Source of the DNA: a virus | IMG/VR virus record: IMGVR_UViG_3300010413_000182 | Location: 1 to 22,890 of that record | DNA length: 22,890 bases | Reading direction: 5' to 3' (one strand) | Shown: positions 376 to 13,204 of the stretch, in pieces | Layout of the letters: every line of letters begins with the position of its first letter | Numbering within the stretch: position 1 is the first letter of the stretch | The notes under the pieces: model-generated | Told to the model about the DNA's origin: nothing | Seen by the model: only the letters and a program-made list of their open reading frames with translations | Databases searched by the model: none | Position numbers and translations under genes: made by a program

Positions 376-1011
376 TTAGCGAGTCTTCATGAAACGCTCA
401 GCAGCCTCACGTAATGACTTAGGCTCCTCAACAACTTCCACTTCTTCCTCACTATCTACTACTTCCTCTTCTACCTCTAAGGGTTTAACGGCAGACTTTC
501 GGTTTGCAGGCTTTTTAAGTTCTGCAAGCTCAGTAGTAAGAGCCTCAACTTTTTCAGACAGCGCTTCGATAGTACCTTTCAATTCGTCAACTTCAGAAAC
601 ATCAGTCTCGTCAACTTCGTCAACCGTCTGTTCCTCGGCCTGGGGAACCTCTGCGGTAACCTCTAGTGACTTCTTAATGTCCTCTAAAGCTGTAACAATT
701 GCGTTGGCAAAATCTGCAAAAGCGCCAGCTTCAACAAATTCAGGAGCAGGTTCGTCTTCGTCTTCAACGATAGCTTCGGCTTCGATTTCCTCTTCAGCCT
801 CTTCGTCAATAGACATTTCCACATCGGCTTCAACCTCTGCGGTTTCATCGACTTCTGCTTCAGCTTCTACCTCAGCCTCAAGGTCTTTATCTTCTTCTTC
901 GATAACCTCTTCAGCTTCAGCAACAGGCTCCTCAACTTCTAAGTCTTTCTCCTCTTGTGTAACCTCTTCGGTTACCTCTTCTTCTAAGATATTTTCTTGA
1001 GTGTCAGGCAT
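376..1011 (-). CDS. Probable separately translated scaffold protein (internal in-frame start in the protease gene)
   Basis: Inside the protease gene, and in the same frame, the ATG for Met249 is preceded by AAGGAGG with five bases between AGGAGG and ATG (site at 1017-1023). This is one of the best ribosome binding sites in the window. Translation from here would give a 211-residue, strongly acidic protein (start MPDTQENILEEEVTEEV) with a coiled coil near its C-terminal third and a basic tail, but no protease domain. Nested scaffolds made from an internal start in the protease gene are well known, for example lambda C/Nu3. The site falls exactly at the border between the protease and Cys-rich part and the acidic part, which argues against chance. 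Expression has not been shown, and the long form may also be made. Confidence 0.7.
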   Translation of the reverse strand: MPDTQENILEEEVTEEVTQEEKDLEVEEPVAEAEEVIEEEDKDLEAEVEAEAEVDETAEVEADVEMSIDEEAEEEIEAEAIVEDEDEPAPEFVEAGAFADFANAIVTALEDIKKSLEVTAEVPQAEEQTVDEVDETDVSEVDELKGTIEALSEKVEALTTELAELKKPANRKSAVKPLEVEEEVVDSEEEVEVVEEPKSLREAAERFMKTR

Positions 1012-1755
1012 AGCATCCTCCTTGATAATAGACTTACTTTTCTCCGAGCAAGGCTCTTCGCACATACTGTGCGCTATGGCGATTGCTTGATCCTGTGACA
1101 TTTCTGGATCATCATTCATGATCTCAGGAATCTTTCTGGATACACAATCATCAACGGATTCGCCTTCTTGCCTGCACTCTGGAGACTTTTCTATGTCTTG
1201 TGTTTGAGTTTTTGGCAGACCAAATTTCTTAATAGCAGATACCATACCCATCTCACGTGCTGCCATACGAAAATCATCAGTCATGAGATTATAATCAAGT
1301 TTAGCATCATAGTTAGCTGGATGGTCTACTAATGAAATTTCTGCCAATGAATAATCATTAATGATCCAGCCACCGTTCTCAGTCATTTCAATGTCGTCTA
1401 GTGCAATAGCAATGCCGACACTCAATGCACTAAGTAAACCATTTTCTACTTCAAACGCTGCTTGTGGATCAATAACTTTAATTTCTACTTCGTTCCAATC
1501 TAATCCGTCACCTTTACCAATAGCTGAAACCTTTCCTACTGGTCGAGGCTGGTGCATATACCTGATGTTGCCCCACTGTTTATACTTTGGTATAGCCCTT
1601 TCAGTAGCTTCCCTTGTAATAACGTCACCAACTTCGTCTATGTTGTCGGAGGTAAATTTCCCTCTAACAATTAAAGGTTCGCCAGGATCACTACTCTTGT
1701 AGTGTTTTGTTAGCGGAACGCCAATAACCTTGTTTCTTACTGTTCTATCTGACAT
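376..1755 (-). CDS. Prohead protease (S78/HK97 type) with C-terminal acidic scaffold-like domain
   Basis: Residues 1-160 match the capsid maturation protease of HK97-like phages. The segment GKFTSDNIDEVGDVI is followed by His68 in 'RYMHQPRPVGKV', Ser112 in 'LSVGIA' and Glu139 in 'SLAEISLVDHPA', the expected positions of the catalytic His, Ser and acidic residues. Residues 191-240 form a small Cys-rich cassette with 'DDCVSRKIPEIM' and 'SQDQAIAIAHSMC'. From about residue 249 to 459 the protein is extremely acidic (long Glu/Asp/Ala/Val stretches), with a coiled coil near residues 391-418 and a basic end, like a scaffold that is degraded during maturation. At 459 aa it is much longer than a stand-alone protease (about 200 aa). 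The start at 1755 overlaps the end of the preceding gene. Met249 has its own excellent ribosome binding site and is described separately. The protease call is firm; the scaffold role is inferred from composition and position. Confidence 0.9.
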   Translation of the reverse strand: MSDRTVRNKVIGVPLTKHYKSSDPGEPLIVRGKFTSDNIDEVGDVITREATERAIPKYKQWGNIRYMHQPRPVGKVSAIGKGDGLDWNEVEIKVIDPQAAFEVENGLLSALSVGIAIALDDIEMTENGGWIINDYSLAEISLVDHPANYDAKLDYNLMTDDFRMAAREMGMVSAIKKFGLPKTQTQDIEKSPECRQEGESVDDCVSRKIPEIMNDDPEMSQDQAIAIAHSMCEEPCSEKSKSIIKEDAMPDTQENILEEEVTEEVTQEEKDLEVEEPVAEAEEVIEEEDKDLEAEVEAEAEVDETAEVEADVEMSIDEEAEEEIEAEAIVEDEDEPAPEFVEAGAFADFANAIVTALEDIKKSLEVTAEVPQAEEQTVDEVDETDVSEVDELKGTIEALSEKVEALTTELAELKKPANRKSAVKPLEVEEEVVDSEEEVEVVEEPKSLREAAERFMKTR

Positions 1756-2032
1756 GTGTTTTATTTTCCTCTGCTACTGCAAGTAACTTTTTAGCAAAGT
1801 GAGGGCCATAAACCTTGGACAGTTTTCCATAACCGACTTCTATAATGTCTTTGCACATAAGCGTTTCTGTTCCACCCCTATGTGAGGTTCGTTCAGGCCA
1901 ATCATCTTGCCATCTATCGTGTAACTTTGCTGTATCTTCTTCAGATAAAAATCTATCAATAATGGTTCCAGTTCTCGTACCTAAACCACTTACTACATTT
2001 AGTCTCTGCCCACTTTTACTGGTTGTATACAT
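1745..2032 (-). CDS. Small head-region protein of unknown function
   Basis: A 95-residue protein (MYTTSKSGQRLNVVSGLGTR...) not recognised from a family. A TTG codon four codons upstream could also open the frame, but the ATG at 2032 has GAGGTG four bases before it and is preferred. The protein is polar with no membrane segment or signal. It contains 'DRFLSEEDTAKLHDRWQDDW', a likely helical stretch, and 'GYGKLSKVYGPHFAKKLL' near the end. It lies between the zinc-ribbon gene and the protease gene and overlaps the protease start by 11 bases, so the two are probably co-translated. The position suggests a head assembly or accessory role, but the sequence gives no direct evidence. Confidence 0.75.
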   Translation of the reverse strand: MYTTSKSGQRLNVVSGLGTRTGTIIDRFLSEEDTAKLHDRWQDDWPERTSHRGGTETLMCKDIIEVGYGKLSKVYGPHFAKKLLAVAEENKTHVR

Positions 2033-2089
2033 ATAACACCTCAATAAACTACAATTACATTAATGTGCAAGTTGTCAAATTTACTTGCT

Positions 2090-2371
2090 CTAATGCGATT
2101 TTTCACCGATTTCCTTCATCATCCTTGCTGCCATTATACTTACAGTGGCATCAACAAGCTGATAAATTGATCGGACAATAGGATCAGAAGTGTACCAAAC
2201 CTTTTGTGTTCCACATGACCCACACTTAACTACAAGATTAGGGCCTCTTGTTTGAACTGATTCAACTGTGCTATCTTTACTTACTACTAGTTCCGATCCG
2301 AGCACTGTACCAAGTACTGCACCACAAGAATGATTAATGCAATACCAATCTATTACTTTTTTCTCTGGCAT
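2090..2371 (-). CDS. Small zinc-ribbon protein
   Basis: A 93-residue protein with two cysteine pairs: Cys11-x4-Cys16 (CINHSC) and a CGSCG knuckle near residue 50. These are spaced as in a zinc ribbon, with beta-rich sequence between them. The second half (DPIVRSIYQLVDATVSIMAARMMK, in part) is a predicted amphipathic helix. The ATG at 2371 has GGAGAG seven bases upstream and lies inside the 3' end of the portal gene (38-base overlap), so it is translationally coupled to portal. Its function is unknown. Zinc-ribbon proteins are common in phage head and packaging clusters, and nucleic acid or protein binding is likely. Confidence 0.75.
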   Translation of the reverse strand: MPEKKVIDWYCINHSCGAVLGTVLGSELVVSKDSTVESVQTRGPNLVVKCGSCGTQKVWYTSDPIVRSIYQLVDATVSIMAARMMKEIGEKSH

Positions 2372-3968
2372 AACTCATCTCTCCTATGAGATAATCAAAC
2401 AGGCTTTTTACAGTTTCTACATCTGCCTCTCGCTGATTAATCTCTTCTGTCATAGCCCTCACCATATAATCTGGTATAATATCGGACTCGAACACTCTAA
2501 GTGCCTTGCCCTTACTAACCCTATTTATAGCGAATGACTTGAATTTTTTAAGTTCTGATACTAACGCACGCTCTTCATCATCATGGTTATCCCCCCTTGG
2601 TGGGTCTTGATCGTCGTTAGTAGGTTCTCCAGTTTCTGATGGATCATCTGGTTCTGGTTCACGACCTTCTGGTGGTGATCCAGTATCAGGATTTTCCAAT
2701 GGTGTATTAGATTGTGGAGACACTTCTTCAACTTGATCAACGTACAAATCACCGTTCTCATCATCTCTTGGCTCTTCGCCAAGTTGGTTTCTAATCTCGT
2801 TAGGATTGTAAACACCCAATGAGTGGTAGCGCATATGTACTGTTGCTTGTTCGACAGCAGTTAAGAAATCTGGTTTATTAAACTTAAATTCCCAACCTAT
2901 AATACCAAACTCTCTAACATGAATTTGTTCATAAAGAGCGTTCTCGATAAGCTTAAAGATCGGAACCATAGTTGTTTCATGGAACTCACGCCTTAATTCA
3001 CGTAGTCCACCAGAACTTATGCTGTCATCAATTCCTAGCTTTGCGCCAGGAGTACCAGTTACCGCTAACGTTTCCGTACGGGTATCATTACGAGCTTCTT
3101 GGTAAGGTAAATCTTCTGGAAGCCTGGAAACATTCTCGATCTGTAATTCACCTTGAACAACGACAGGATTCTTTCCAACATTTGAAGCACCTCCATATTT
3201 AGATTCAAGAGCATCAACAAAATCATCAAACGCTTCATCACTAATATCTGGAGATAAAATGTAAAAAGCTTCTGGAGTACTTCTATTACGTACATACTCC
3301 CTTGCTGCTGTCTGCAAATAAATATCCAATGGTAAAGCGAAGTCTGTTACAGATTCTAGATCAGTACCACCAGTTGGATAGCCTTCCCAATCTGGGTTTA
3401 CGATGTACACAATATCATGTATATCAGTGTACTCAACATAATCCTCTGTATCTCTGCTCATGTACTGCATAAAAGCTACTTCTTTGAAGTAGCCTTCTTC
3501 ATCAACATTAGGCACAACGAATCCGTGCATAAAGTCTAATCCTATTGGATTTCCTGTACCATCTCGTACAATGTGAAAAGCTGCTTGACCAAAATACTTC
3601 AGGTACATAGCAGCAATCATTAGCTTATATGCTAAGCTGTAAAAATCCTTGATGTTAGTCCAGTCTCTGTTTGAGAAATTATAAAAGTTTAGTAGCTTCT
3701 TTCTGTGTAATTCCCTAGCCTGAGATTTAAATTCTAGATTCTTCTTTAACTTCCACCAAGTTCCTACAGTAGTTCTACCTAGTGTACTAATAGATGCACG
3801 TACATAACCGTGAATCTTTATAGTATCCATCAAATCCCAAAAAAGCGTGAACTTCTCGTTCACGACATATCCTTCTGTTTCTAATTCTTTTATTGGCGCT
3901 TGGTTACTAGGTTCAATTATTTTAACTTTCGTAGTTTTAGGAACAGTTCCTAACATAACTGCCTGCAT
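2334..3968 (-). CDS. Portal protein (HK97-like family)
   Basis: This 544-residue protein has the size and layout of HK97-type portals, which form the dodecameric ring at the capsid vertex through which DNA is packaged and to which the tail attaches. The core includes 'LKYFGQAAFHIVRDGTGNP', a family signature after the clip-side helix, then 'DIHDIVYIVNPD', 'LPLDIYLQTAAREYVRN' (stem helix), and 'GTPGAKLGI' before the tunnel-loop helix. 'YNPNEIRNQLGEEP' is the conserved end of the portal core. After about residue 410 there is a Pro/Asp/Glu-rich disordered stretch and then a helical C-terminal domain of about 85 residues. GGAGG lies five bases before the ATG. The gene follows a terminator and an intergenic gap, so it may have its own promoter, but none is convincing. 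Confidence 0.92.
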   Translation of the reverse strand: MQAVMLGTVPKTTKVKIIEPSNQAPIKELETEGYVVNEKFTLFWDLMDTIKIHGYVRASISTLGRTTVGTWWKLKKNLEFKSQARELHRKKLLNFYNFSNRDWTNIKDFYSLAYKLMIAAMYLKYFGQAAFHIVRDGTGNPIGLDFMHGFVVPNVDEEGYFKEVAFMQYMSRDTEDYVEYTDIHDIVYIVNPDWEGYPTGGTDLESVTDFALPLDIYLQTAAREYVRNRSTPEAFYILSPDISDEAFDDFVDALESKYGGASNVGKNPVVVQGELQIENVSRLPEDLPYQEARNDTRTETLAVTGTPGAKLGIDDSISSGGLRELRREFHETTMVPIFKLIENALYEQIHVREFGIIGWEFKFNKPDFLTAVEQATVHMRYHSLGVYNPNEIRNQLGEEPRDDENGDLYVDQVEEVSPQSNTPLENPDTGSPPEGREPEPDDPSETGEPTNDDQDPPRGDNHDDEERALVSELKKFKSFAINRVSKGKALRVFESDIIPDYMVRAMTEEINQREADVETVKSLFDYLIGEMSYAREKSNRLVLH

Positions 3969-4026
3969 GTGTGCCTCCGCATAAGATACATCTACACTGT
4001 ACTACAATCATAATGTATATAAAAAT

Positions 4027-4058
4027 GCAAAAAGGCAAGCTAAAAAGCCTGCCTTTTC
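4027..4058 (-). terminator. Rho-independent terminator after the exonuclease gene
   Basis: On the minus strand an AAAGGCA/TGCCTTT stem with further GC pairs and a TTTTTA loop is followed by a run of T residues. It starts about 25 bases after the stop of the exonuclease homologue and would separate the transcript that begins at the promoter near 6108 from the portal transcript. Confidence 0.8.
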
Positions 4059-4081
4059 AAAAAATGTTCGTGTAAGTTACA

Positions 4082-4936
4082 CTAAACGGTAGTTAACTTG
4101 ATCAAAATTGGTGGTGACCCTGCTGCATAAGACCACCTAATTCCATCTGGATCGACAAATTGATGAGCATCAACAGCAACTTGCGTCCACCCAAGCTTTT
4201 TTGTAGCAGCCTCTACCCATTCTTTGAATGTATTACACTGGACTGGTAAAAGAATTGCGTTACCATTAACCCCTTCTATAGCATCCTTTCTGTACGCATC
4301 AATTACTTCAGCAACCTTAGCATGGATACCATTGAAGTTCCTGTACACAACTCTTGCACCACCTATAGCCGTATGTACTACATCCTCTTCCTCAACACCA
4401 ATAGCTCTTGATATTGAGTGACCCTTATTATCTGGAGAATTAATAGTAGGATCAATTTTCTTTAAAGCCTTGAACAAGTCAATATTATCAAGAACATCAT
4501 TCCAAGGAAAACCAACAAAGTCAAGCTCAGGCTTCATAAAGTACTTAAAAAACTTTAGGTCGAACTTTGGATTTTGTCCTACCAAAAAAGTATCAGTACC
4601 ATTTCCTACCCTACCACGTAGCCAAGAAATAATTTTCATCTTAGCCTCGTCTAATGGAACACCCTCTTTTTCTAGGTACTCCCAAGTGATCCCGTTAACT
4701 TTAAGAGCACCAGGGCTAGCGTTCTTCCACTGTTCTTCTGTTGGTAGGATAACAACCTCAAGTTCTTCTAATGTTGATTCATCAGAGTTTGGCTCATGCT
4801 TCTCATGTATAAAAGCAATGGAAAAAATACAAGCCCCTTCTGTTGGTTCAAAACCAGAAGTCTCAATATCTAAATAAAGTTTGTCTCGTAGCTTCATAAA
4901 CACACTTTCTACCTTTACGGGGTCTGGTTTAAACAT
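4082..4936 (-). CDS. DEDD-family 3'-5' exonuclease homologue with a missing fourth catalytic Asp
   Basis: Residues 15-200 have the RNase H-like fold of DnaQ/RNase T exonucleases. Motif I is 'YLDIETSGFEP' (Asp23, Glu25), motif II is 'GQNPKFDLKF' (Asp126), and motif III begins at His188 in 'VVHTAIGGARVVY'. In active DEDDh enzymes an Asp follows five residues after this His; here it is Gly193. The enzyme may therefore be impaired, or may have a binding role. Residues 225-284 form an extra C-terminal domain (CNTFKEWVEAATKKLGWTQV, then an Asp/Gly-rich beta section) of unknown function. The start overlaps the preceding gene by eight bases, with GAGAGG just upstream; a second in-frame Met at residue 14 lacks a site. 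A position between terminase and portal is odd for a replication exonuclease, so it may process DNA ends or act in packaging. Confidence 0.8.
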   Translation of the reverse strand: MFKPDPVKVESVFMKLRDKLYLDIETSGFEPTEGACIFSIAFIHEKHEPNSDESTLEELEVVILPTEEQWKNASPGALKVNGITWEYLEKEGVPLDEAKMKIISWLRGRVGNGTDTFLVGQNPKFDLKFFKYFMKPELDFVGFPWNDVLDNIDLFKALKKIDPTINSPDNKGHSISRAIGVEEEDVVHTAIGGARVVYRNFNGIHAKVAEVIDAYRKDAIEGVNGNAILLPVQCNTFKEWVEAATKKLGWTQVAVDAHQFVDPDGIRWSYAAGSPPILIKLTTV

Positions 4937-5135
4937 ACTGCCTCTCTTCCTTCAGTTCTTCCAATTCCATTGCCCAGCCTTCTCTGTTCTTCTTAGCATA
5001 CTTGGACATGAACTCTACAAATTCGTAATACTCATCAGGCTCAAGTAGCTCAGAAAAGGATGATGGAAAAGAACTAAATATCTCGTAAAACCATTCAATG
5101 AATTTTACGGCTTGATTAAACTTTACACTAGCCAT
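4929..5135 (-). CDS. Small acidic helical protein of unknown function
   Basis: A 68-residue protein, MASVKFNQAVKFIEWFYEIF..., rich in aromatic and acidic residues and predicted to be all helical. The frame is open further upstream, but the ATG at 5135 has GAGGAG four bases before it and overlaps the end of the preceding gene by eight bases, so it is preferred over the earlier ATG. No known motif is seen. It belongs to the four-gene set between the noncoding leader region and the terminator at 4027. Confidence 0.7.
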   Translation of the reverse strand: MASVKFNQAVKFIEWFYEIFSSFPSSFSELLEPDEYYEFVEFMSKYAKKNREGWAMELEELKEERQYV

Positions 5136-5636: not shown

Positions 5637-5742
5637 ACCTTCTCCTTCTATACTACGTCGTACTTCTTAAGTACTATGAGTAGTACATTAGTACTTATAA
5701 GTTCTAATATACTATTTTGTTATAGTTGATCACTTGGATACA

Positions 5743-6101
5743 CTCCCCCCATCTAGCATGAGTACACATTTAGATAAATGCCACGAGTACTCACGAAAGA
5801 TGGGGGGAAGATGATCTACATGTTTGATCTTACAGTGCGGTAAGATAGGGAGGTTAAAGGTCTAGGAAGACCACATGATCCCTCTAACACGTCGCATCTA
5901 CTAAGTGCTATGAACCGAAGTTCAACTGTCCAGGCGATCCGTTACCAGTTGGTATTAGCACTCATCCCCTTGCCCGTAGGCAGATCGGCGGTGACCCATC
6001 AAGGTTTCTGGAAGTCCGTGTATGTCTGTCGGTGACGGAGTGGGTGTTACCCACCAAATGATTTTTTATCTATCACAACTTACCGACGTTAGTTGTGAAT
6101 T
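5743..6101 (-). ncRNA. Candidate structured noncoding RNA or long structured leader
   Basis: The 491 bases between the large terminase and the next gene hold no ORF, yet they are clearly richer in G and C than the surroundings. On the minus strand, just after a consensus promoter, many helices can be drawn. An 8-bp hairpin lies at 6073-6098 and a GTGGGT/ACCCAC hairpin at 6040-6054. An 8-bp long-range helix pairs 5956-5963 with 5903-5910 and encloses a TACC/GGTA hairpin and a GAAC-TTCG-GTTC tetraloop hairpin (5912-5923). There are hairpins at 5859-5872 and 5827-5846. A long compound hairpin at 5743-5810 has a 12-bp G/C base, a 7-bp middle and a 6-bp tip. The last stem has no T run after it, so the RNA may be processed or continue into the 5406-5636 gene. 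No known class (tmRNA, RNase P, 6S, group I intron) could be recognised by eye. Confidence 0.65.
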
Positions 6102-6107
6102 TTTTAC

Positions 6108-6136
6108 ATTATACCACATGTGTTTATTTACGTCAA
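6108..6136 (-). promoter_or_regulatory. Sigma-70-type promoter for the noncoding RNA region
   Basis: On the minus strand: TTGACG (6131-6136), a 17-base spacer, then TATAAT (6108-6113) with an extended -10 TG (TGTGGTATAAT). The expected start is near 6101. The -35 box lies beside the stop codon of the large terminase gene. This is one of the strongest promoters in the window, and it points into a stretch with no ORF, which supports the RNA call. Confidence 0.85.
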
Positions 6137-7996
6137 GGTTGCTCGTTGCCAAATTATATATTTTGCTACTTCTTTAATCTGATCTTCAGAGTAGTCATCG
6201 TGCATAGCAAGTTTAACTTTATGGGATAGGGGAAATGGCATCTCACCTGTACTATTTTCTACGTACCATATAAGTTGTTTTGTTGGAACTTCTGCTAACA
6301 GCCTGGATATACCAAGTGTTACAGTATTTGGTAGCTCATTTATTATTCTTACATCTTCTCCACTAACATTTTCTTTACTACCAACAACAGCAGTTCTAAA
6401 GGCTTTTCCACGATCTATTTCAATAGCAGTTTTTAAATATAACCAAGCGTGTGCAAAGTGAGAAGCTCGTAGTTCACGGTATACTGCTACATCCTTTTCT
6501 CCAGATGGGGTCTTTCTTTTTTCAACATCACGCTTTATAGCAGTGATATGGTCAATGATTGTTTCTGTATCAATAGGTAAGTTAGGAAGCTCTCCAGGCA
6601 ATGTCCATTCACTGTCTTTAATACTTGCTATCAAACGATCAAACCCCTCAGACCTTCCGATAACTACGTTTGTCTTTACACCACGATCATCTGTTTTAGT
6701 TGACCAATCAACAGTAGTGGCAGAATAGTCAGCAAGTAAAATTTTGCCAAGGAAATCTTTTTGTAAGTCTCTTGCTGCGTGTCTGTTAGGATCAGCGTCA
6801 ATAACCATCCTTTTAATTCTGAATAGCTTCATAAGCTGCCCCAACCTATCAAACCCTTTATCGAATGGTATTGACTCAAGATGTACAATCTTTGGGTTGC
6901 CACCACCTCTTGGAACTTTACCAATAAGCAACTGTAGTTCATTACCTTGGTCAACGCCCATGTAATAAGTTGACTTACCATCGGTGAAGTCCTCGTATTG
7001 TGCCTCTTCGTTGAAGCAGTTAATAAGCATATCTTCACGTTCAAGTGAGCCAATACCAAGCTCCCTAGGTTTACCCAGGTTCTTTCTATAGAACTCAGTT
7101 ATATCTGTAAGCGGATCAAGAAAGATTGAATAAAGGTGCTCTGGTGTGTGTGTCATCATTTGAGATACATGAAAGCCAATATGGTCTTTAGATTTTTCAG
7201 GATACTCAGGAACCCAAAATCCTTCCTGTATCTGCTCAAGCGTCAATGGTGTATCACACTTTAGGCATCCAAAGAAAACTTCCTTTGGTCGTTGAAGAGG
7301 GCCTATTACACGTAGATTTTTATCCCAGTCAAGTTCTTGTAGGTGTCCACATTTAGGACACTTAACAAACCATTCACGTTTATCACTGTTATTAAAAGTT
7401 GCATTTACACCATAGTTAGGAACAGTGGGTGTTGAAAAGAAATATGTCAATCTCCAAGACGAGTCATCCATACGGTTCTGTGCGGTAGCAACATTTTTCA
7501 TTTCAGATAAATCGAACTCATCAATAAACACTGCATCTGCTGGCATCATACGAGGTTCTACAGTGGACTCCATAAAGAATAAGTATGAACCACCAAATCT
7601 TTTTGAGCGTGTTGAATCTGGAAAACCCAGTAGAGTTGACAATCTTTCAGAGTTTCTAATCATTGGATCAACACGAGTTGTAACAAAGTCAATATAGTCT
7701 TGCTGTCGTGGAAGCATATAGATAATACGAACAGGCCAAAAATCTGCAAAATGAAACATACGCACTGCTGCCATTGTAGACATACCACACTGCGTAGACT
7801 TTTGTATTGACATTGTTCTGGCTATACCAGCAGGGTTTTGTTCTATGTTATATGGATTAGAGACAGCATAGATTTCTTTCATCCATTTTCTGCTGCCAAC
7901 TTTCCATTCTTTGTTTTCTAACAAATCAACATAGGAAATTCCGTAAGCTAAAATATCCTTAGTCGCTAAGCTCTCTATCCTCTTCTGACTTATCAT
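6128..7996 (-). CDS. Terminase large subunit, GpA-like (DNA packaging ATPase/nuclease)
   Basis: This 622-residue motor protein pumps phage DNA into the prohead and cuts it. The ATPase half has a deviant Walker A 'KSTQCGMST' (residues 66-74), with the Lys at the front as in lambda gpA, and a Walker B 'DAVFIDEFD' with Asp159/Glu160. A zinc-binding pair follows (Cys213/Cys216 and Cys244/Cys247), typical of the GpA family. The nuclease half has 'YYMGVDQG' (Asp349) and 'MVIDADPNRHA' (Asp400, Asp402), the RuvC-like acidic residues, and a late His in 'ASHFAHAWLYL'. The start overlaps the small subunit gene by 38 bases, with AGGG just upstream. Family membership is firm. GpA-like terminases often go with cohesive-end (cos) packaging, but this phage's end type cannot be read from the window. 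Confidence 0.93.
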   Translation of the reverse strand: MISQKRIESLATKDILAYGISYVDLLENKEWKVGSRKWMKEIYAVSNPYNIEQNPAGIARTMSIQKSTQCGMSTMAAVRMFHFADFWPVRIIYMLPRQQDYIDFVTTRVDPMIRNSERLSTLLGFPDSTRSKRFGGSYLFFMESTVEPRMMPADAVFIDEFDLSEMKNVATAQNRMDDSSWRLTYFFSTPTVPNYGVNATFNNSDKREWFVKCPKCGHLQELDWDKNLRVIGPLQRPKEVFFGCLKCDTPLTLEQIQEGFWVPEYPEKSKDHIGFHVSQMMTHTPEHLYSIFLDPLTDITEFYRKNLGKPRELGIGSLEREDMLINCFNEEAQYEDFTDGKSTYYMGVDQGNELQLLIGKVPRGGGNPKIVHLESIPFDKGFDRLGQLMKLFRIKRMVIDADPNRHAARDLQKDFLGKILLADYSATTVDWSTKTDDRGVKTNVVIGRSEGFDRLIASIKDSEWTLPGELPNLPIDTETIIDHITAIKRDVEKRKTPSGEKDVAVYRELRASHFAHAWLYLKTAIEIDRGKAFRTAVVGSKENVSGEDVRIINELPNTVTLGISRLLAEVPTKQLIWYVENSTGEMPFPLSHKVKLAMHDDYSEDQIKEVAKYIIWQRATLT

Positions 7997-8798
7997 CTTC
8001 CCTCATCGCATCTCTTATTGTTCCAGCGTCAAGCATAAACATTACTTCGTACATATCCGCAGATACACCCTCTTTCACACGAAGATGAATGTCAAGTCTC
8101 TTAAACCTTTGACCACATATATGACATAACATGCCATCATCAGTGCTATCAAGAATCCCTAATGCGCCATAGTAAGGGTCGCCGTTTTCATCCAGTAAAG
8201 GGCCTTGAGCGTTAGCTTCATCAACAACTCTTACAGTTCCCTCGATTATATCATCATCTCCTTGACTTCCTAATTGTTCCGTGATATAATTGAGAGCATC
8301 TTTGGTTGCTTTAAGTGTAGGATTTTGTTCTATAATATTTATGTTAATATCTTTGAATTTGTTACCAAGGAATAAATCTAAAACCCACCTAGCGTGCTGT
8401 GCTTGGATACCCAATAGTTTAGCATTGACAACACGCTCAGGAACATCTTCTTGTGGATCATACGTTGCATCAACTTCTAAAACTTCTGCTGACTTTTTGA
8501 CAGCAGTGACAAATTGCTTTTCCATTTGTTGCATACGCCAGATACTTACTTGTTTACGTGCCACTGCCACAGCTTGAGTAACTTCTGGATATTTTACTAG
8601 CCACGATCTGGCAGTTTTAGTACTGACACCAAGTTCTTTAGCAATCTTATACATCGGCCAACCACTGACAAGCATCTCTGCCATAGAGATAATTTTGTCA
8701 GGTGTGTCACCTTCTGTCAGTGTCAGTGTCAGGTTGTCAATGACAGTCTGCCACGTGGCAGTGTCATTGTCAGGGTACTTCATAATGTCATTTGTCAT
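7959..8798 (-). CDS. Terminase small subunit with HTH and a Ros/MucR-like zinc finger
   Basis: A 279-residue protein directly before the large terminase. An HTH near residues 48-72 (MYKIAKELGVSTKTARSWLV) is of the type that lets small terminases bind the packaging site. A helical middle (residues 73-175) is likely the oligomerisation region. The C-terminal part has 'MLCHICGQRFKRLDIHL' followed by 'VSADMYEVMF', which resembles the Ros/MucR zinc finger: Cys225, Cys228 and His238 are in place, but the usual second His is Gly244. At 279 aa it is larger than typical small terminases because of the acidic linker and this finger. The ATG at 8798 has GGAG five bases before it. The first 35 codons contain the TGACA array described separately, which may be the DNA this protein recognises. 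Confidence 0.85.
   Translation of the reverse strand: MTNDIMKYPDNDTATWQTVIDNLTLTLTEGDTPDKIISMAEMLVSGWPMYKIAKELGVSTKTARSWLVKYPEVTQAVAVARKQVSIWRMQQMEKQFVTAVKKSAEVLEVDATYDPQEDVPERVVNAKLLGIQAQHARWVLDLFLGNKFKDININIIEQNPTLKATKDALNYITEQLGSQGDDDIIEGTVRVVDEANAQGPLLDENGDPYYGALGILDSTDDGMLCHICGQRFKRLDIHLRVKEGVSADMYEVMFMLDAGTIRDAMREDDKSEEDRELSD
8696..8797 (-). repeat. Array of ten TGACA repeats with a 14-bp palindrome: possible packaging (pac/cos) site
   Basis: Read on the minus strand, TGACA occurs ten times in 102 bases, with first bases at 8797, 8790, 8772, 8766, 8739, 8731, 8725, 8719, 8709 and 8700. There is one inverted copy at 8741-8745, which with the neighbouring copy makes the palindrome TGTCAATGACA (8735-8745). 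In the largest gap between copies lies a perfect 14-bp palindrome, CTGCCACGTGGCAG (8748-8761). A given 5-mer is expected about once per kilobase, so this is strong enrichment. It lies in the first 35 codons of the small terminase, before the HTH. Packaging sites of P22 and SPP1 are in or next to the small terminase gene, and lambda O carries iterons inside its own coding region, so embedded sites have precedent. The function is inferred. Confidence 0.6.
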
Positions 8799-8813
8799 AG
8801 TAACTCCAATCTG

Positions 8814-9038
8814 CTATTCGTCATATATGTCAAAGTCATCTTCTAGTTCGGTAAAGCTAATTTCATTTTCATTAACTCTGACATTGCGCCTGCGTTCTCT
8901 TTGTTCTTCCCGCCATAGATATGACAACCAATCAGGCCAATCATATGGACTTCTGCCATACTTTTTTTCACAATTACTACAGATAGCAAAACGCCATGTA
9001 ATGTTTTGCCCACAACCAGCTAAGCATTTATGTGCCAT
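8814..9038 (-). CDS. Small zinc-ribbon protein before the terminase genes
   Basis: A 74-residue protein with Cys5-x3-Cys9 (CLAGC) and Cys20-x2-Cys23 (CSNC), which together form a likely zinc site. A Trp-rich segment (PYDWPDWLSYLW) follows, then an Arg-rich stretch (REEQRERRRNVR) and an acidic tail. The basic helix suggests nucleic acid binding. The ATG has GGGAG six bases upstream and overlaps the end of the sigma-like gene by 11 bases. It is the second gene of the transcript starting at 9289. No closer family is recognised. Confidence 0.75.
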   Translation of the reverse strand: MAHKCLAGCGQNITWRFAICSNCEKKYGRSPYDWPDWLSYLWREEQRERRRNVRVNENEISFTELEDDFDIYDE

Positions 9039-9276
9039 GAAAAACTCCCAGGATATGCTCCTTCAACGAAGATAAGGCAGATACTCGCTTACTCCACACG
9101 GTTGTACGTGAAATGTCTAAGATTAAAGAAATTTCTTTTTGTCGAAATCCCGCCACAGATAGAGCGATAACTGCCTGTTGGTCATGCGGTAAACTTCTTA
9201 CAGACTCTTTTATTATTATTGCTTCAACCGTTTCTAATTTATCTTCCGATAATTCTAATGAGTACTCTTCAAACAT
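9028..9276 (-). CDS. Sigma-70 region 4-like HTH protein (candidate transcription or packaging regulator)
   Basis: An 82-residue protein. Residues 30-75 (LPHDQQAVIALSVAGFRQKE, then ISLILDISRTTVWSKRV) have the pattern of sigma-70 region 4 and LuxR-type HTH: 'LP..q..vi.L...G....EIs..L.is..tV..r...a...L'. It has no other sigma domain, so it is not a full sigma factor. The ATG at 9276 follows GAGG with five bases between; a GTG two codons upstream is less likely because it would overlap the ribosome binding site. It is the first gene of the leftward packaging/head block and lies directly beside two palindromic operators, so it is a candidate for the protein that binds them or that turns on late genes. 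This role is inferred from position. Confidence 0.75.
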   Translation of the reverse strand: MFEEYSLELSEDKLETVEAIIIKESVRSLPHDQQAVIALSVAGFRQKEISLILDISRTTVWSKRVSALSSLKEHILGVFHGT

Positions 9277-9295
9277 GAACACCTCTAATACTATT

Positions 9296-9324
9296 ATTAT
9301 ACCATAAAAATTGATTTTTGTCTA
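9296..9324 (-). promoter_or_regulatory. Leftward promoter of the packaging/head block
   Basis: On the minus strand: TAGACA (9319-9324), a 17-base spacer, and TATAAT (9296-9301) with a TGG before it. The expected start is near 9289, giving a short leader before the ATG at 9276. The first operator palindrome begins two bases upstream of the -35 box (centre about -44), a usual position for an activator. Confidence 0.85.
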
Positions 9325-9361
9325 GTCCGAAACAATCGGACATGTGTCCGAAACAATCGGA
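9325..9361. promoter_or_regulatory. Two identical palindromic operators between divergent promoters
   Basis: The 16-base word GTCCGAAACAATCGGA occurs twice, at 9325-9340 and 9346-9361. Each copy contains the inverted repeat TCCGA-n5-TCGGA, as expected for a dimeric HTH protein. The centres are 21 bp apart (two helical turns), so two dimers would sit on the same face of the DNA. Relative to the leftward start the centres are near -44 and -65; relative to the rightward start they are near -56 and -77. Confidence 0.8.
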
Positions 9362-9374
9362 TATTTATATGATC

Positions 9375-9403
9375 TTGACAGTTTAAAGCTTTTGAGGTAT
9401 AAT
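9375..9403 (+). promoter_or_regulatory. Consensus rightward promoter of the DNA-metabolism block
   Basis: A perfect sigma-70 promoter: TTGACA (9375-9380), a 17-base spacer, TATAAT (9398-9403). The start is expected near 9410, about 22 bases before the SSB start codon, with AGGAGG in between. It needs no activator by sequence, so it probably fires early in infection. Confidence 0.9.
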
Positions 9404-9431
9404 TGTTCTTAACTGACTATAGGAGGCAGAT

Positions 9432-9806
9432 ATGAATAAATGTTTATTTACAGGAAACTTGGGAGCAGACCCTGAGCTTAAGGAAACTGCTGGTGGTATG
9501 AAAATTGCCACAGTAAATGTTGCCGTAAATGGTAGAAGTGTAAAGCAAGCTGATGGTACGTATGAGACTGAAACTGAGTGGATTACAGTAAAAATCTTTG
9601 GTGATCGTGCAGTAACTTTTAGTAATGTGCTAAATGTTGGTGACAAAGTTGAACTTGAAACTAGTTACCATAAAAATACTTGGGTTACTGACGATGGTGA
9701 AAACAGGTCATTCGTAGAATTTATTATTGACCGCTGGCGCAAGATAACTCCGAAGAGTGAATCAGCATCTGCATCAAGCCCACCTGTTAGTGATCCAGGG
9801 TTTTAA
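9432..9806 (+). CDS. ssb: Single-stranded DNA-binding protein
   Basis: A 124-residue OB-fold protein with the classic SSB start 'MNKCLFTGNLGADPELK', then 'KIATVNVAVNG', the 'TEWITVKIFGDRA' strand, and 'VGDKVELETSYHKNTWV' followed by 'SFVEFIIDRW'. It coats single-stranded DNA during phage replication and recombination. The C-terminal tip reads 'SDPGF', a shortened form of the usual acidic DDDIPF tail that recruits partner enzymes, so partner binding may differ from host SSB. AGGAGG lies five bases before the ATG. It is the first gene of the rightward transcript, and its stop overlaps the next start (TAATG). Confidence 0.93.
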   Translation: MNKCLFTGNLGADPELKETAGGMKIATVNVAVNGRSVKQADGTYETETEWITVKIFGDRAVTFSNVLNVGDKVELETSYHKNTWVTDDGENRSFVEFIIDRWRKITPKSESASASSPPVSDPGF

Positions 9807-10114
9807 TGAAGTTTGCTTATCGAGGTGTGGATGATATAATCAAGCGCCTTTTCGATAGCGAAAATTTGCAAGGCGATAAAGATTGGAGTGAAGAAATTCT
9901 AATCTATATCGCCTTGGCAATCTATGCTTACGATCAATTGAAGGAAGTAGAAGACACTACATTTCAAAATAGAGAGCTAATGAGACCGTCCTTAGATAGA
10001 GCCTGGAGAGAGGCTCTTTGGTTAAGACAGAGACTTACTTCTGATCTAGACAAAAAAGGTACAAGAAACTTTAGACTCACAAGGTTTGGTAACGTTGAAG
10101 AAAAAAACAGATGA
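9806..10114 (+). CDS. Small helical protein of unknown function, coupled to SSB
   Basis: A 102-residue protein predicted to be mostly helical, with aromatic-rich segments (EEILIYIALAIYAYDQLKEV) and a basic C-terminal part (RNFRLTRFG). No metal site, nucleotide-binding loop or membrane segment is seen. The ATG overlaps the stop of ssb (TAATG), so it is co-translated with SSB. Its end overlaps the start of the RNase H frame. A role in replication is suggested only by position. Confidence 0.7.
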   Translation: MKFAYRGVDDIIKRLFDSENLQGDKDWSEEILIYIALAIYAYDQLKEVEDTTFQNRELMRPSLDRAWREALWLRQRLTSDLDKKGTRNFRLTRFGNVEEKNR

Positions 10115-10577
10115 GCGTAAGTATGTGAACGTATGGGTTGATGGGTCAACATGGCCTAAGAACCCAGGAAAATACGGAGGTTGGGGGGCGGTATTTATTT
10201 TTGTTGGCGACGGAAAAAGAGCAGAACTCCATTTAAGTAAAAGAATGAATGGAGGTAATGTTACTAATAATCAAGCAGAGACAGAAGCTATTATAAGAGC
10301 GTTGGAGGCTTTAAAAGAACCGTGTCATGTTAGCATACATACAGATAGCATGTATGTCATTAAATGTTTTAAGAAAGTAAGTAATGGTGGTATGCCAAAT
10401 GCTAATAAAGAGTATTGGTATAGAATGAAGAACATCATTAATAATACTAAACATGACATAAAGCTTATTAAAGTTGAGGGTCATTCTGGTAACGAACAAA
10501 ACGAACTTGCACACACGCTTGCGTATAACGCTTCGTCAAATAACAGGGAAGTTGAGGAACGCTTCATTGATAGATGA
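10095..10577 (+). CDS. rnhA: Ribonuclease H (type I)
   Basis: A 160-residue RNase HI that would cut RNA in RNA-DNA hybrids, for example to remove primers. Catalytic residues are visible: Asp16 in 'VWVDGS', Glu62 in 'NNQAETEAI' and Asp84 in 'IHTDSMYV'. The fourth acidic position, Asp134 in E. coli ('ADELA'), is His140 here ('ELAHTLA'). In E. coli RNase HI, changing this Asp to His keeps activity, so the enzyme is probably active. The 'VEGHSGNEQNE' loop before it is typical. No ATG fits. The TTG at 10095, with AAGG ten bases upstream, is chosen; a TTG at 10086 is an alternative. The gene overlaps its neighbours on both sides. Confidence 0.88.
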   Translation: MKKKTDERKYVNVWVDGSTWPKNPGKYGGWGAVFIFVGDGKRAELHLSKRMNGGNVTNNQAETEAIIRALEALKEPCHVSIHTDSMYVIKCFKKVSNGGMPNANKEYWYRMKNIINNTKHDIKLIKVEGHSGNEQNELAHTLAYNASSNNREVEERFIDR

Positions 10578-10920
10578 GAGGTTAGCCATATTGAATGGGC
10601 TGGACTTATATCGTAGCGTACAGCGTATGCTAGTAATAGACCGTGATGACGGAAGCTGTGTTATCTGCTGGTTTAAACATGGCAGGATGCGCAAAGCAAA
10701 CGAGGTTCATCACGTTTACGGAAGAGGAAAGAAAGCTGGAGACTGGAGGGAGCAATACACTCGTTTAATGTGTGTATGTAAAGAGTGTCACATGCAAGCG
10801 CCTCCTGCTCAGGATAGACACAGCAAGCAAGCATGGGTAATAGAGTTATTAGATAAAGCTAATAAAGAACCTATTAATCCTAACTTTGAACACCAATATG
10901 AGTATGACGACTATGACTGA
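10567..10920 (+). CDS. HNH endonuclease-like protein
   Basis: A protein of about 117 residues with the HNH fold (beta-beta-alpha-metal). It has a first Cys pair in 'GSCVICWFKHG', the 'NEVHHVYGRG' core with the two His that bind metal and attack water, and 'LMCVCKECHMQ', which supplies the second Cys pair and a further His. Such small HNH proteins in phages cut DNA, either in packaging or as homing or nicking enzymes. The start is uncertain because no ATG is in frame before the domain. The TTG at 10567 has GAGG upstream; the TTG at 10591 follows GAGAGG and is almost as good. The gene overlaps the end of RNase H, which suggests coupled expression. Confidence 0.82.
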   Translation: MIDERLAILNGLDLYRSVQRMLVIDRDDGSCVICWFKHGRMRKANEVHHVYGRGKKAGDWREQYTRLMCVCKECHMQAPPAQDRHSKQAWVIELLDKANKEPINPNFEHQYEYDDYD

Positions 10921-11224
10921 TAAAACTTGGAAAGCAGCAGAAAGACAAATAGCAAGGATATTTGGCGGTCAGCGTCGTGGTGCAGACTATAAGAAGAAAG
11001 ATGGTGGGGGAAAGTCTGACATAATACTTGATGGTTGGTCAATAGAAGTTAAGCATAATAAACGCCCATTTTTTCAACTCATGTTTGATGCTGCTGTGCA
11101 AGCTGAAAAAAATAGAGAAAGTCCAACTGACATTCCCATAGCAGTTATACATAAAGCAGGAACGCCTTATAAAGATTCCTTAGTAGTAATGAGGATAGAG
11201 ACTTTCCAAGATTTCTTTGTATAA
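10898..11224 (+). CDS. PD-(D/E)XK nuclease, Holliday-junction-resolvase-like
   Basis: A protein of about 108 residues with the pattern of the PD-(D/E)XK fold: a first helix with Glu ('WKAAERQIARIFGG'), a Gly-rich basic loop, then 'GKSDIILDGWSIEVKH', where the Asp and the Glu-x-Lys form the metal site, and a following helix ('FFQLMFDAAVQAEK') and strand ('IPIAVIH'). Small phage proteins of this kind resolve branched DNA before packaging or trim DNA ends. Three in-frame ATGs lie close together (10898, 10904, 10913) and none has a clear ribosome binding site. The gene overlaps the HNH gene's end, so translation is probably coupled. The fold call is good; the exact substrate is not known. Confidence 0.75.
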   Translation: MSMTTMTDKTWKAAERQIARIFGGQRRGADYKKKDGGGKSDIILDGWSIEVKHNKRPFFQLMFDAAVQAEKNRESPTDIPIAVIHKAGTPYKDSLVVMRIETFQDFFV

Positions 11225-11248
11225 CCTAAATATAATAATGACAGACCT

Positions 11249-11280
11249 GTGCGGTTAGTTGAGAACTCCCGCACTTTTTT
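11249..11280 (+). terminator. Rho-independent terminator after the nuclease gene
   Basis: A GTGCGG/CCGCAC stem with an inner AGTT/AACT helix is followed by six T residues. It ends the ssb-nuclease transcript, about 25 bases after the last stop. No good promoter follows before the reductase gene, so that gene may depend on read-through. Confidence 0.82.
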
Positions 11281-11314
11281 GACACTATATTGACGTATTG
11301 AGGAGGATACGATC

Positions 11315-13204
11315 ATGGATAATTGGTTTGATAACGTATTTGCAGAAGAGGTTTGGAAAAAGAAATATGCAGGGGAGTTCTCTGATATTAAAAACTTCTT
11401 TGGTAGTTTGGCTGAGCGTGTTGCTCAATACCCACTACAGAAAACAGACTTTTATAATATGATGTACTATAAAAGGTTTTCCCCTGGTGGAAGGATACTA
11501 GCATGGGGAGGTAGACCTGATGCTAGAATCTCGCTCATGAATTGTACTACACATAGTATTGAAGATGACTCGTTACGTGCTATTAGCACAGCTACGGAAA
11601 AGGTCATGAAAGCTAGTAGCAGGGGTCAAGGCATTGGCATTGATTTGTCTAAACTTAGACCATATGGCGCACCAGTAAATAATGCAGCAGTGGAATCAAC
11701 TGGTGCGGTTTCATTTATGGAGCTAATTAATAAAGCTGGAGAAATCATCGGGCAAGAGGGTAGGCGTGCTGCTCTTTTGTTTAGTTTAGATGTTGACCAT
11801 CCAGATGTATGGCGCAATGGTTCTGATGATATTGTATGTCATAACTGTAATGGTAATGGGTGTATGAAGTGTCGTGGTACTGGACACCTATCCTATGATT
11901 TTATTAATATAAAAAACCTCCCTGGAAAAGTCGAAGGTGCTAATATATCTGTAAATATAACAGACGAGTTTATCAAGGCTGTTAAGAATGATGATGTATG
12001 GGAGCTTAGGTTCGATGGTGATAATTCTAAAGGCAGCTTTGTAGTATCACGAGAAGTTCCAGCAAAAGAATTATTTAGCGCTTTAGCTTATTCAGCTTTT
12101 GCATCTGCTGAACCTGGGGTGCTGTTTGTAGATAATACAGCACGCATGTCTAATTCCGATCTATTTGGATCACGTTGGAAAGTAGTAGGTGTTAATGCCT
12201 GCTCAGAACAATTGCTAGACCAAGAGGGTGTATGTAATTTAGGTTCACTAAATCTAAGTGCATATGTGCTCGATCCGTTTACTAGTAAGGCTAGGTTTGA
12301 CTACGATCTATTTCATTCGGACATTGATAATGCAATTAAGTTTTTAGATAATGTACTAGATATAGAACTTGAAATGGGTAACTATATTAGCGACACGCAG
12401 AGAGCATCAATTGAGTACCTAAGAAGGATAGGTTTAGGAGTTATGGGCTTTGCAGATACTTTAGCGATGATGGGTTTACCATACAATATTGACAACAAGG
12501 AGACAGCCGACTTTGTTGAAAAGGTGTTTGGTTTGCTACGTGATACATCCTATGCTACGTCTGTTTCATTAGCAAAAAGAAAAGGTGTAGCTAAAGTATG
12601 GGAAACTAAAGATAAATGGCAACGTGCCAAGCTGGTTGAAGAGGCTTTCTTTGGAACGTTACCTAGATACCTTAAAGAATCTATTATTGAGTATGGTACT
12701 AGAAATATTACCTTGCTTAGTGTAGCACCTACAGGATCAATATCAAATCTATTTGGTGTATCCTCTGGTATAGAGCCTTTGTTTGCTAAGTCTTATATAA
12801 GACGCTATAGAATAAATGGGCATGAAGAGTTTGTTGACTACGTTCATCCAGCAGTAGAAAAGGCTATAACAGCAGGTAAATCAGACACACTTTGGGATAC
12901 TGCATATGAGGTATCTCCTATGGATCACATAAAAATGCAGGCTGCAATCCAAAAGTATATTGATCAAGCAATAAGCAAAACAACTAATATGCCAGAAACA
13001 TCTACATCCTTAGATGTTGAAGAGATATATTTAAACGCATACGATCTAGGCATAAAAGGTTTGGCAGTATACGTTAATGGTAGTAGAGAAAAACAAATTC
13101 TATACCAAAGTGACCAATGCCCCGAATGTAGTGATGGCGGGAACGTTGTACGAGAGGATGGCTGCAAGAAATGTTTAACATGTGGATGGTCTGTTTGCAC
13201 TTGA
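11315..13204 (+). CDS. nrdJ: Class II (adenosylcobalamin-dependent) ribonucleotide reductase
   Basis: A 629-residue enzyme that would turn ribonucleotides into deoxyribonucleotides for phage DNA synthesis using coenzyme B12. Residues 52-82 include 'FSPGGRILAWGG' and 'SLMNCTTH', where Cys77 is the first redox cysteine. 'GVNACSEQ' holds Asn294, the radical Cys296 and Glu298, and 'EGVCNLGSLNL' holds Cys307, the second redox cysteine. 'APTGSISNLFGVSSGIEP' is the phosphate-binding loop region. The C-terminus (residues 602-628) has the Cys-rich tail seen in class II enzymes, with CPEC and CKKCLTCGWSVC. There is no N-terminal ATP cone. Unusual: residues 175-188 carry a DnaJ-type knuckle (CHNCNGNG...CMKCRGTG) between 'VDHPDV' and 'GANISVNITDEF'. 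AGGAGG lies eight bases before the ATG. The partner reductant is not in the window. Confidence 0.92.
   Translation: MDNWFDNVFAEEVWKKKYAGEFSDIKNFFGSLAERVAQYPLQKTDFYNMMYYKRFSPGGRILAWGGRPDARISLMNCTTHSIEDDSLRAISTATEKVMKASSRGQGIGIDLSKLRPYGAPVNNAAVESTGAVSFMELINKAGEIIGQEGRRAALLFSLDVDHPDVWRNGSDDIVCHNCNGNGCMKCRGTGHLSYDFINIKNLPGKVEGANISVNITDEFIKAVKNDDVWELRFDGDNSKGSFVVSREVPAKELFSALAYSAFASAEPGVLFVDNTARMSNSDLFGSRWKVVGVNACSEQLLDQEGVCNLGSLNLSAYVLDPFTSKARFDYDLFHSDIDNAIKFLDNVLDIELEMGNYISDTQRASIEYLRRIGLGVMGFADTLAMMGLPYNIDNKETADFVEKVFGLLRDTSYATSVSLAKRKGVAKVWETKDKWQRAKLVEEAFFGTLPRYLKESIIEYGTRNITLLSVAPTGSISNLFGVSSGIEPLFAKSYIRRYRINGHEEFVDYVHPAVEKAITAGKSDTLWDTAYEVSPMDHIKMQAAIQKYIDQAISKTTNMPETSTSLDVEEIYLNAYDLGIKGLAVYVNGSREKQILYQSDQCPECSDGGNVVREDGCKKCLTCGWSVCT

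Follow-up and report, generated by a model that had tools for sequence, protein, structure and literature searches.

The 22,890-nt stretch of viral DNA analyzed here (IMG/VR record IMGVR_UViG_3300010413_000182, hereafter the window) probably carries a phage gene for a free-standing noncoding RNA of the EGFOA class (RF02955), one that has become too divergent for a direct Rfam match. The RNA lies on the minus strand at 5743-6101, with an expected transcript of ~360 nt that may run on 3', and it was recognized through its fold, its homologue in the relative L018, covariation and a structural descriptor. Its placement in the EGFOA class follows from synteny, from L018 as an intermediate and from two long-range pseudoknots, PK1 and PK2. 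A preliminary description of this DNA had proposed a structured noncoding RNA at this site and had called it possibly new. The first part is strongly supported, in that both pseudoknots covary in sequence across relatives; the second has to be narrowed, since the window RNA does escape Rfam, while its syntenic relatives carry EGFOA RNAs.

The site downstream of terL

The gene terL (6128-7996) encodes a GpA-type ATPase, and its 3' end is overlapped by a sigma70-type promoter on the minus strand at 6136-6108 (TTGACG-17-TATAAT, extended by the TG before the -10), which scores 11 out of 12 and is the top minus-strand site in the interval from terL to the next gene. Transcription from this promoter is expected to start near 6101. 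Over the 490 bases downstream (minus strand, 6127-5637) there is no ORF of at least 40 aa, and the GC content is 0.47 in 5740-6099 vs about 0.34-0.38 in the flanking DNA. The near-consensus promoter, the ORF-free stretch behind it, the raised GC and the location between the terminase and portal-side genes had all been pointed out in the preliminary description, and each of them is borne out. Of the 14 loci scanned, window included, 13 have a promoter scoring 10-12 out of 12 at the terL stop, against a background in which coding windows mostly score 8 and never more than 10; the 14 loci comprise 11 carriers of the RNA core described below, 10 of them positive, and three relatives without a detectable core, all positive.

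Two IMG/VR contigs are identical to the window in DNA, and the diverged relatives were reached via TerL and portal alignments. It had been suggested that homologous phage contigs be collected and searched for covariation, and this recovered the element from 12 more phage contigs, all diverged, where it again separates terL from the exonuclease/portal operon; compensatory changes are present. In L018 (TerL 60%), the noncoding stretch between terL and the homologue of the 5406-5636 gene could be aligned along the whole RNA, and paired changes convert GGUC..GACC of the window to GAGUC..GGCUC and UCUUAC..GUAAGA to UCUUGG..CCAAGA. The core lies in the gap after terL in L103, L105, L106, L115, L117, L118, L119, L120, L126 and L128, and in the matching gap before the exonuclease gene in L107. 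No core was detected in L108, L121, L122 and L125, where TerL is 42-47% identical; this may reflect incomplete detection, since the core loop of L118, one base longer, escaped our first regular expression and was found by model match and reading. In L020 and L021 (TerL 32-35%) no core was seen, and portal comes after terL either directly or with a single small gene intervening. L020 also has, at 967-5058 on the minus strand, a 1363-aa ribonucleotide-reductase-like ORF in which two intein-like insertions, beginning CFRGDTLIRTKNGD and CVAGDTQIQTEDG, were noted by eye.

A search with the motif CTCCCTAN{10,30}GATCAAACATG returned L098 and L099, both of which were rejected as chance matches; beyond the copies of the window, only the L018 contig was real. 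TerL scans of prokaryote genome contigs found none. Comparing eight RNA regions with named phages by blastn gave no match that could be used and thus led to no cultured carrier; all the carriers found are uncultivated.

The pseudoknotted core and its surroundings

The core consists of a 4-6 bp stem and a 17-nt loop, GUAA-NN-N4RC-CUGGR, parts of which pair with two upstream strands. In the window (all coordinates that follow are on the minus strand), the core hairpin at 5923-5951 has the stem strands CAACUG and CAGUUG and the loop GUAACG-GAUCGC-CUGGA, which supplies the 3' strands of both pseudoknots; it is backed by covariation and by the RF02955 matches of the relatives. PK1 is a kissing helix of 6 bp in which an upstream GY-n-N4 is the partner of the loop's N4RC, one base being bulged; in the window its strands are at 5934-5939 and at 5983-5989, where the bulged base is a C. 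PK2 joins the CUGGR of the loop (5929-5933) to an upstream YCCAG, as in CCCAG:CUGGG, and the window strand is UCCAG(A) at 6008-6012.

PK1 was exact in 14 of 18 loci and not exact in the other 4, compared with 11 of 288 controls in which loops were swapped between loci. The paired strands are GAUCGC with GC(c)GAUC in the window, ACCUAC with GU(a)AGGU in L018, CGCAAC with GU(c)UGCG in L117, ACAAAC with GU(c)UUGU in L107, ACGGAC with GU(c)CCGU in L118 and CGUAAC with GU(c)UACG in L134. A PK2 complement was found in 17 of the 18 loci vs 1.84 expected, L103 being the locus without it, and PK2 covaries as well (UCCAG:CUGGA in the window and L117, CCCAA:UUGGG in L115). When all helices were counted across 12 lineages, 98.9% of cells were paired vs 66.5% when shuffled, and 19 of 23 pairs had two-sided changes (score 0.887 vs 0.200 shuffled, 0/500), but the segments entering this count were picked by eye for complementarity, which biases it toward the structure and makes the PK1 swap, the PK2 expectation and the descriptor search the fairer tests. 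The descriptor asked for TAA, a stem of at least 4 bp, PK1 and PK2, and was otherwise free of conserved letters; over 4.0 Mb it gave 49 matches, all of them this RNA, including the window at 5945 (minus), with no false positives.

Long-range covariation of pseudoknots, linking short strands that are not adjacent and keeping a constant bulge, is what a folded single strand would be expected to show, and sites where proteins bind DNA would not. It is hardly conceivable, then, that the element works at the level of DNA, as a cos/pac site or operator array with inverted repeats that mimic RNA structure; its nearness to terL and a C6/G6 inverted repeat would suit such a site, but a strong promoter reads into the element in nearly all the relatives.

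The window RNA as a whole folds at -136.7 kcal/mol vs -104.9 +/- 5.7 in dinucleotide shuffles (z -5.55, 0/100), and its L018 homologue gives a z of -4.88. The core is enclosed by an outer stem, UGAGUGCUA at 5956-5964 with UAGCACUUA at 5902-5910; in several loci an outer stem taken singly does not exceed shuffles, and what speaks for the outer stems is position and covariation only. Within the outer stem, the window fold has a GAAC-UUCG-GUUC hairpin (5912-5923), the place of which is taken in L018 by GGAGC-AUA-GCUCC. On the 3' side of the PK1 strand is the hairpin UGCC-UACG-GGCA (5971-5982), read from the sequence together with the printed RF02955 consensus, where cccc-gaAA-gggg is its counterpart. 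The middle domain (5825-5895), delineated from the L018 alignment, holds the hairpins GGUC-UUCCUA-GACC and UCUUACCGCACUGUAAGA; it is common to the window and L018 with compensatory changes and was not seen in other lineages. The flanking helices in general vary among lineages. At the 3' end (5745-5807), the minimum-energy fold has the hairpin CCCCCCAUCU...AGAUGGGGGG, followed by AGUGUAUCC with no U-tract, and a simple scan of 24 loci found, in 14, a C-run/G-run hairpin 53-218 nt 3' of the core. From the helix list of the preliminary description, the UUCG hairpin and the long 3' hairpin are retained, while the 8-bp end-closing helix (UCAUUUGG/CCAAGUGA) is predicted by minimum-energy folding of 5690-6101, though its conservation could not be shown. 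That list also omitted the two best-supported helices, PK1 and PK2; pseudoknots are invisible to nested folding.

Relation to the EGFOA class

The Rfam search suggested earlier gave nothing credible; EGFOA did not match the window RNA even with E values up to 10 allowed, and an EGFOA match of 17 bits elsewhere in the window falls in the exonuclease gene, outside the RNA. However, six syntenic relatives score above the RF02955 gathering cut-off of 37.7 bits (L107 49.5, L105 49, L103 42.9, L106 40.8, L126 38.5 and L119 37.8 bits), and L018, at 36.9 bits, is short of it by 0.8 bit. L208 and L196, which were found with the descriptor, score as EGFOA at 78.8 and 71.3 bits. A nested covariance model built without the window picked out the right place at only 9.9 bits (E 1.4), as its fourth match in the window and without significance.

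The window RNA has the 17-nt core loop GUAAnn....RCCUGGR (5951-5923), an outer stem around the core and a small hairpin (5964-5956 with 5910-5902), and, further upstream, CCnAGA and CC-GY(n)NNNN strands with complementarity to that loop, and it is connected to the class through the full-length alignment and score of L018. The RF02955 consensus presents, in the same order, CCcAGA, CCGUC.UAG, a hairpin, an outer stem and a core hairpin with a GUAAAG....ACCUGGG loop. It also holds both complementarities, GU(c)CUAG:CUAGAC and CCcAG:CUgGG, which were read from the consensus in this analysis; Rfam draws nested pairs only and annotates the family as a stand-alone sRNA gene. The window departs from the consensus in having GC, GCC and CUGGA in place of GU, ACC and CUGGG, and its RNA of ~360 nt compares with a model of 108 nt. 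Moreover, its UUCG hairpin is 3' of the core, whereas the small hairpin of the consensus is 5' of it, and it has a middle domain in common only with L018. The fact that the variable letters are the pseudoknot letters explains why sequence- and stem-based models miss divergent EGFOA members.

It could be argued that an unrelated RNA converged on an EGFOA-like core, given that the window was detected neither by Rfam nor by the held-out model. We find this highly improbable, since L018, itself close to the EGFOA cut-off, aligns with the window over the whole RNA at an equivalent site, and both pseudoknots, the outer stem and the core occur in identical order. A literature search on EGFOA or RF02955, with the original description outside its reach, found no papers, no experiment and no function. 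EGFOA is now placed in uncultivated phages of several unrelated types and gains a precise, if modelled, double-pseudoknot fold, a promoter and a gene longer than the Rfam model; its function would become approachable by ordinary genetics once a cultured carrier phage is found.

Carriers beyond the terL clade and the proposed role

T4-like phages also have the core, close to baseplate genes (L127, L136, L134 and the relative L132), as do a temperate phage with an integrase and a tRNA (L129), L160 and L208, and an unexpected carrier, the 10.35 kb Zot-encoding, filamentous-phage-like contig L196. In L127, L136, L134 and L208 the next recognised downstream gene is convergent, which implies that the RNA need not lead a message there. 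A core found away from the terminase and often facing convergent genes argues against both a packaging and a cis-leader function and in favor of an autonomous RNA, and we infer that EGFOA-class RNAs act in trans during infection.

The preliminary description had raised a packaging or assembly role. Like the phi29 pRNA, this is a phage RNA considered for its place beside the terminase, and in the terL clade it comes directly after terL. It differs in that there is no Rfam match, the terL is GpA-type and the class occurs away from terminases, so that the obligate link with packaging genes expected of a phi29-type RNA is not a property of EGFOA-class RNAs. In the T4-like phages and the temperate phage the core is far from the terminase; on another carrier contig, Zot is the only gene found that is of the assembly type, and filamentous phages lack a terminase; and in the four relatives with TerL 42-47% identical the core was not detected. 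The proposed role is therefore set aside: the RNA is probably not part of DNA packaging, and a pRNA-like molecule acting with the terminase is very unlikely.

The RNA had also been considered as a possible cis-acting leader of the 5406-5636 gene, and as such it could control late expression of that gene and the exonuclease/portal operon from the terL-stop promoter. In the terL clade the RNA and the downstream operon are on the same strand, no intrinsic terminator was found between the window RNA and the 5406-5636 gene, and GTACT-rich palindromic repeats, possibly an operator, separate the RNA from the next gene both in the window (5640-5715) and in L018 (8320-8390). But convergent genes follow the same RNA in the four phages named above, and the RNA is separated from the next gene by as little as about 107 nt (window) and as much as about 460 nt (L107). 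A leader function is thus not supported for the class and is on the whole unlikely, though with no terminator found, the window RNA by itself may be co-transcribed with its operon.

For an autonomous RNA, it can be hypothesized that transcription from the strong, host-type promoter at the terL stop yields an RNA of ~360 nt, that the 17-nt loop (GUAA-NN-N4RC-CUGGR) would pair simultaneously with the upstream strands GY-n-N4 and YCCAGA, and that a compact double pseudoknot would lock in this way, leaving the near-invariant GUAA exposed. Most likely, it would be an abundant structural RNA, binding or sequestering a host or phage partner via its GUAA/CCCAGA face, as has been proposed for ROOL and GOLLD. 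These are large structured phage and prophage RNAs, often near tRNA islands, whose function is not known (PMC12286853). The window RNA is shorter than either and has a different core, and neither gave an Rfam match when the window and its relatives were scanned. The tRNAs are a point of likeness: in L117, terL and the RNA are separated by a tRNA-Gly, and three relatives with no core detected (L121 at 6842-11600, L122 at 6860-10000 and L125 at 6923-11710) have six to eight tRNAs downstream of terL and keep the conserved promoter at the terL stop. Because these core-less relatives carry tRNA arrays behind the same promoter, the terL site seems to be a stable-RNA locus, as with GOLLD and ROOL, and the translation machinery is our first, admittedly doubtful, guess at the partner. 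More broadly, we tentatively raise the possibility that EGFOA-class RNAs are a widespread phage structural RNA that is exchanged among unrelated phages and can trade places with tRNA arrays at a stable-RNA locus, with a double-pseudoknotted loop that docks host translation machinery or serves RNA self-assembly, in functional parallel to ROOL and GOLLD.

Some further observations were made at these loci. In L125, ~370 noncoding bases that end in a C/G hairpin may be another RNA. In the rearranged L108 (3629-4653, minus strand), the conserved promoter after terL leads into a gene for a ~300-aa protein, not into the RNA. Upstream of the terminase genes in the window (9028-9282) is a gene for an 84-aa protein with a sigma-70 region 4 domain, conserved in several relatives.
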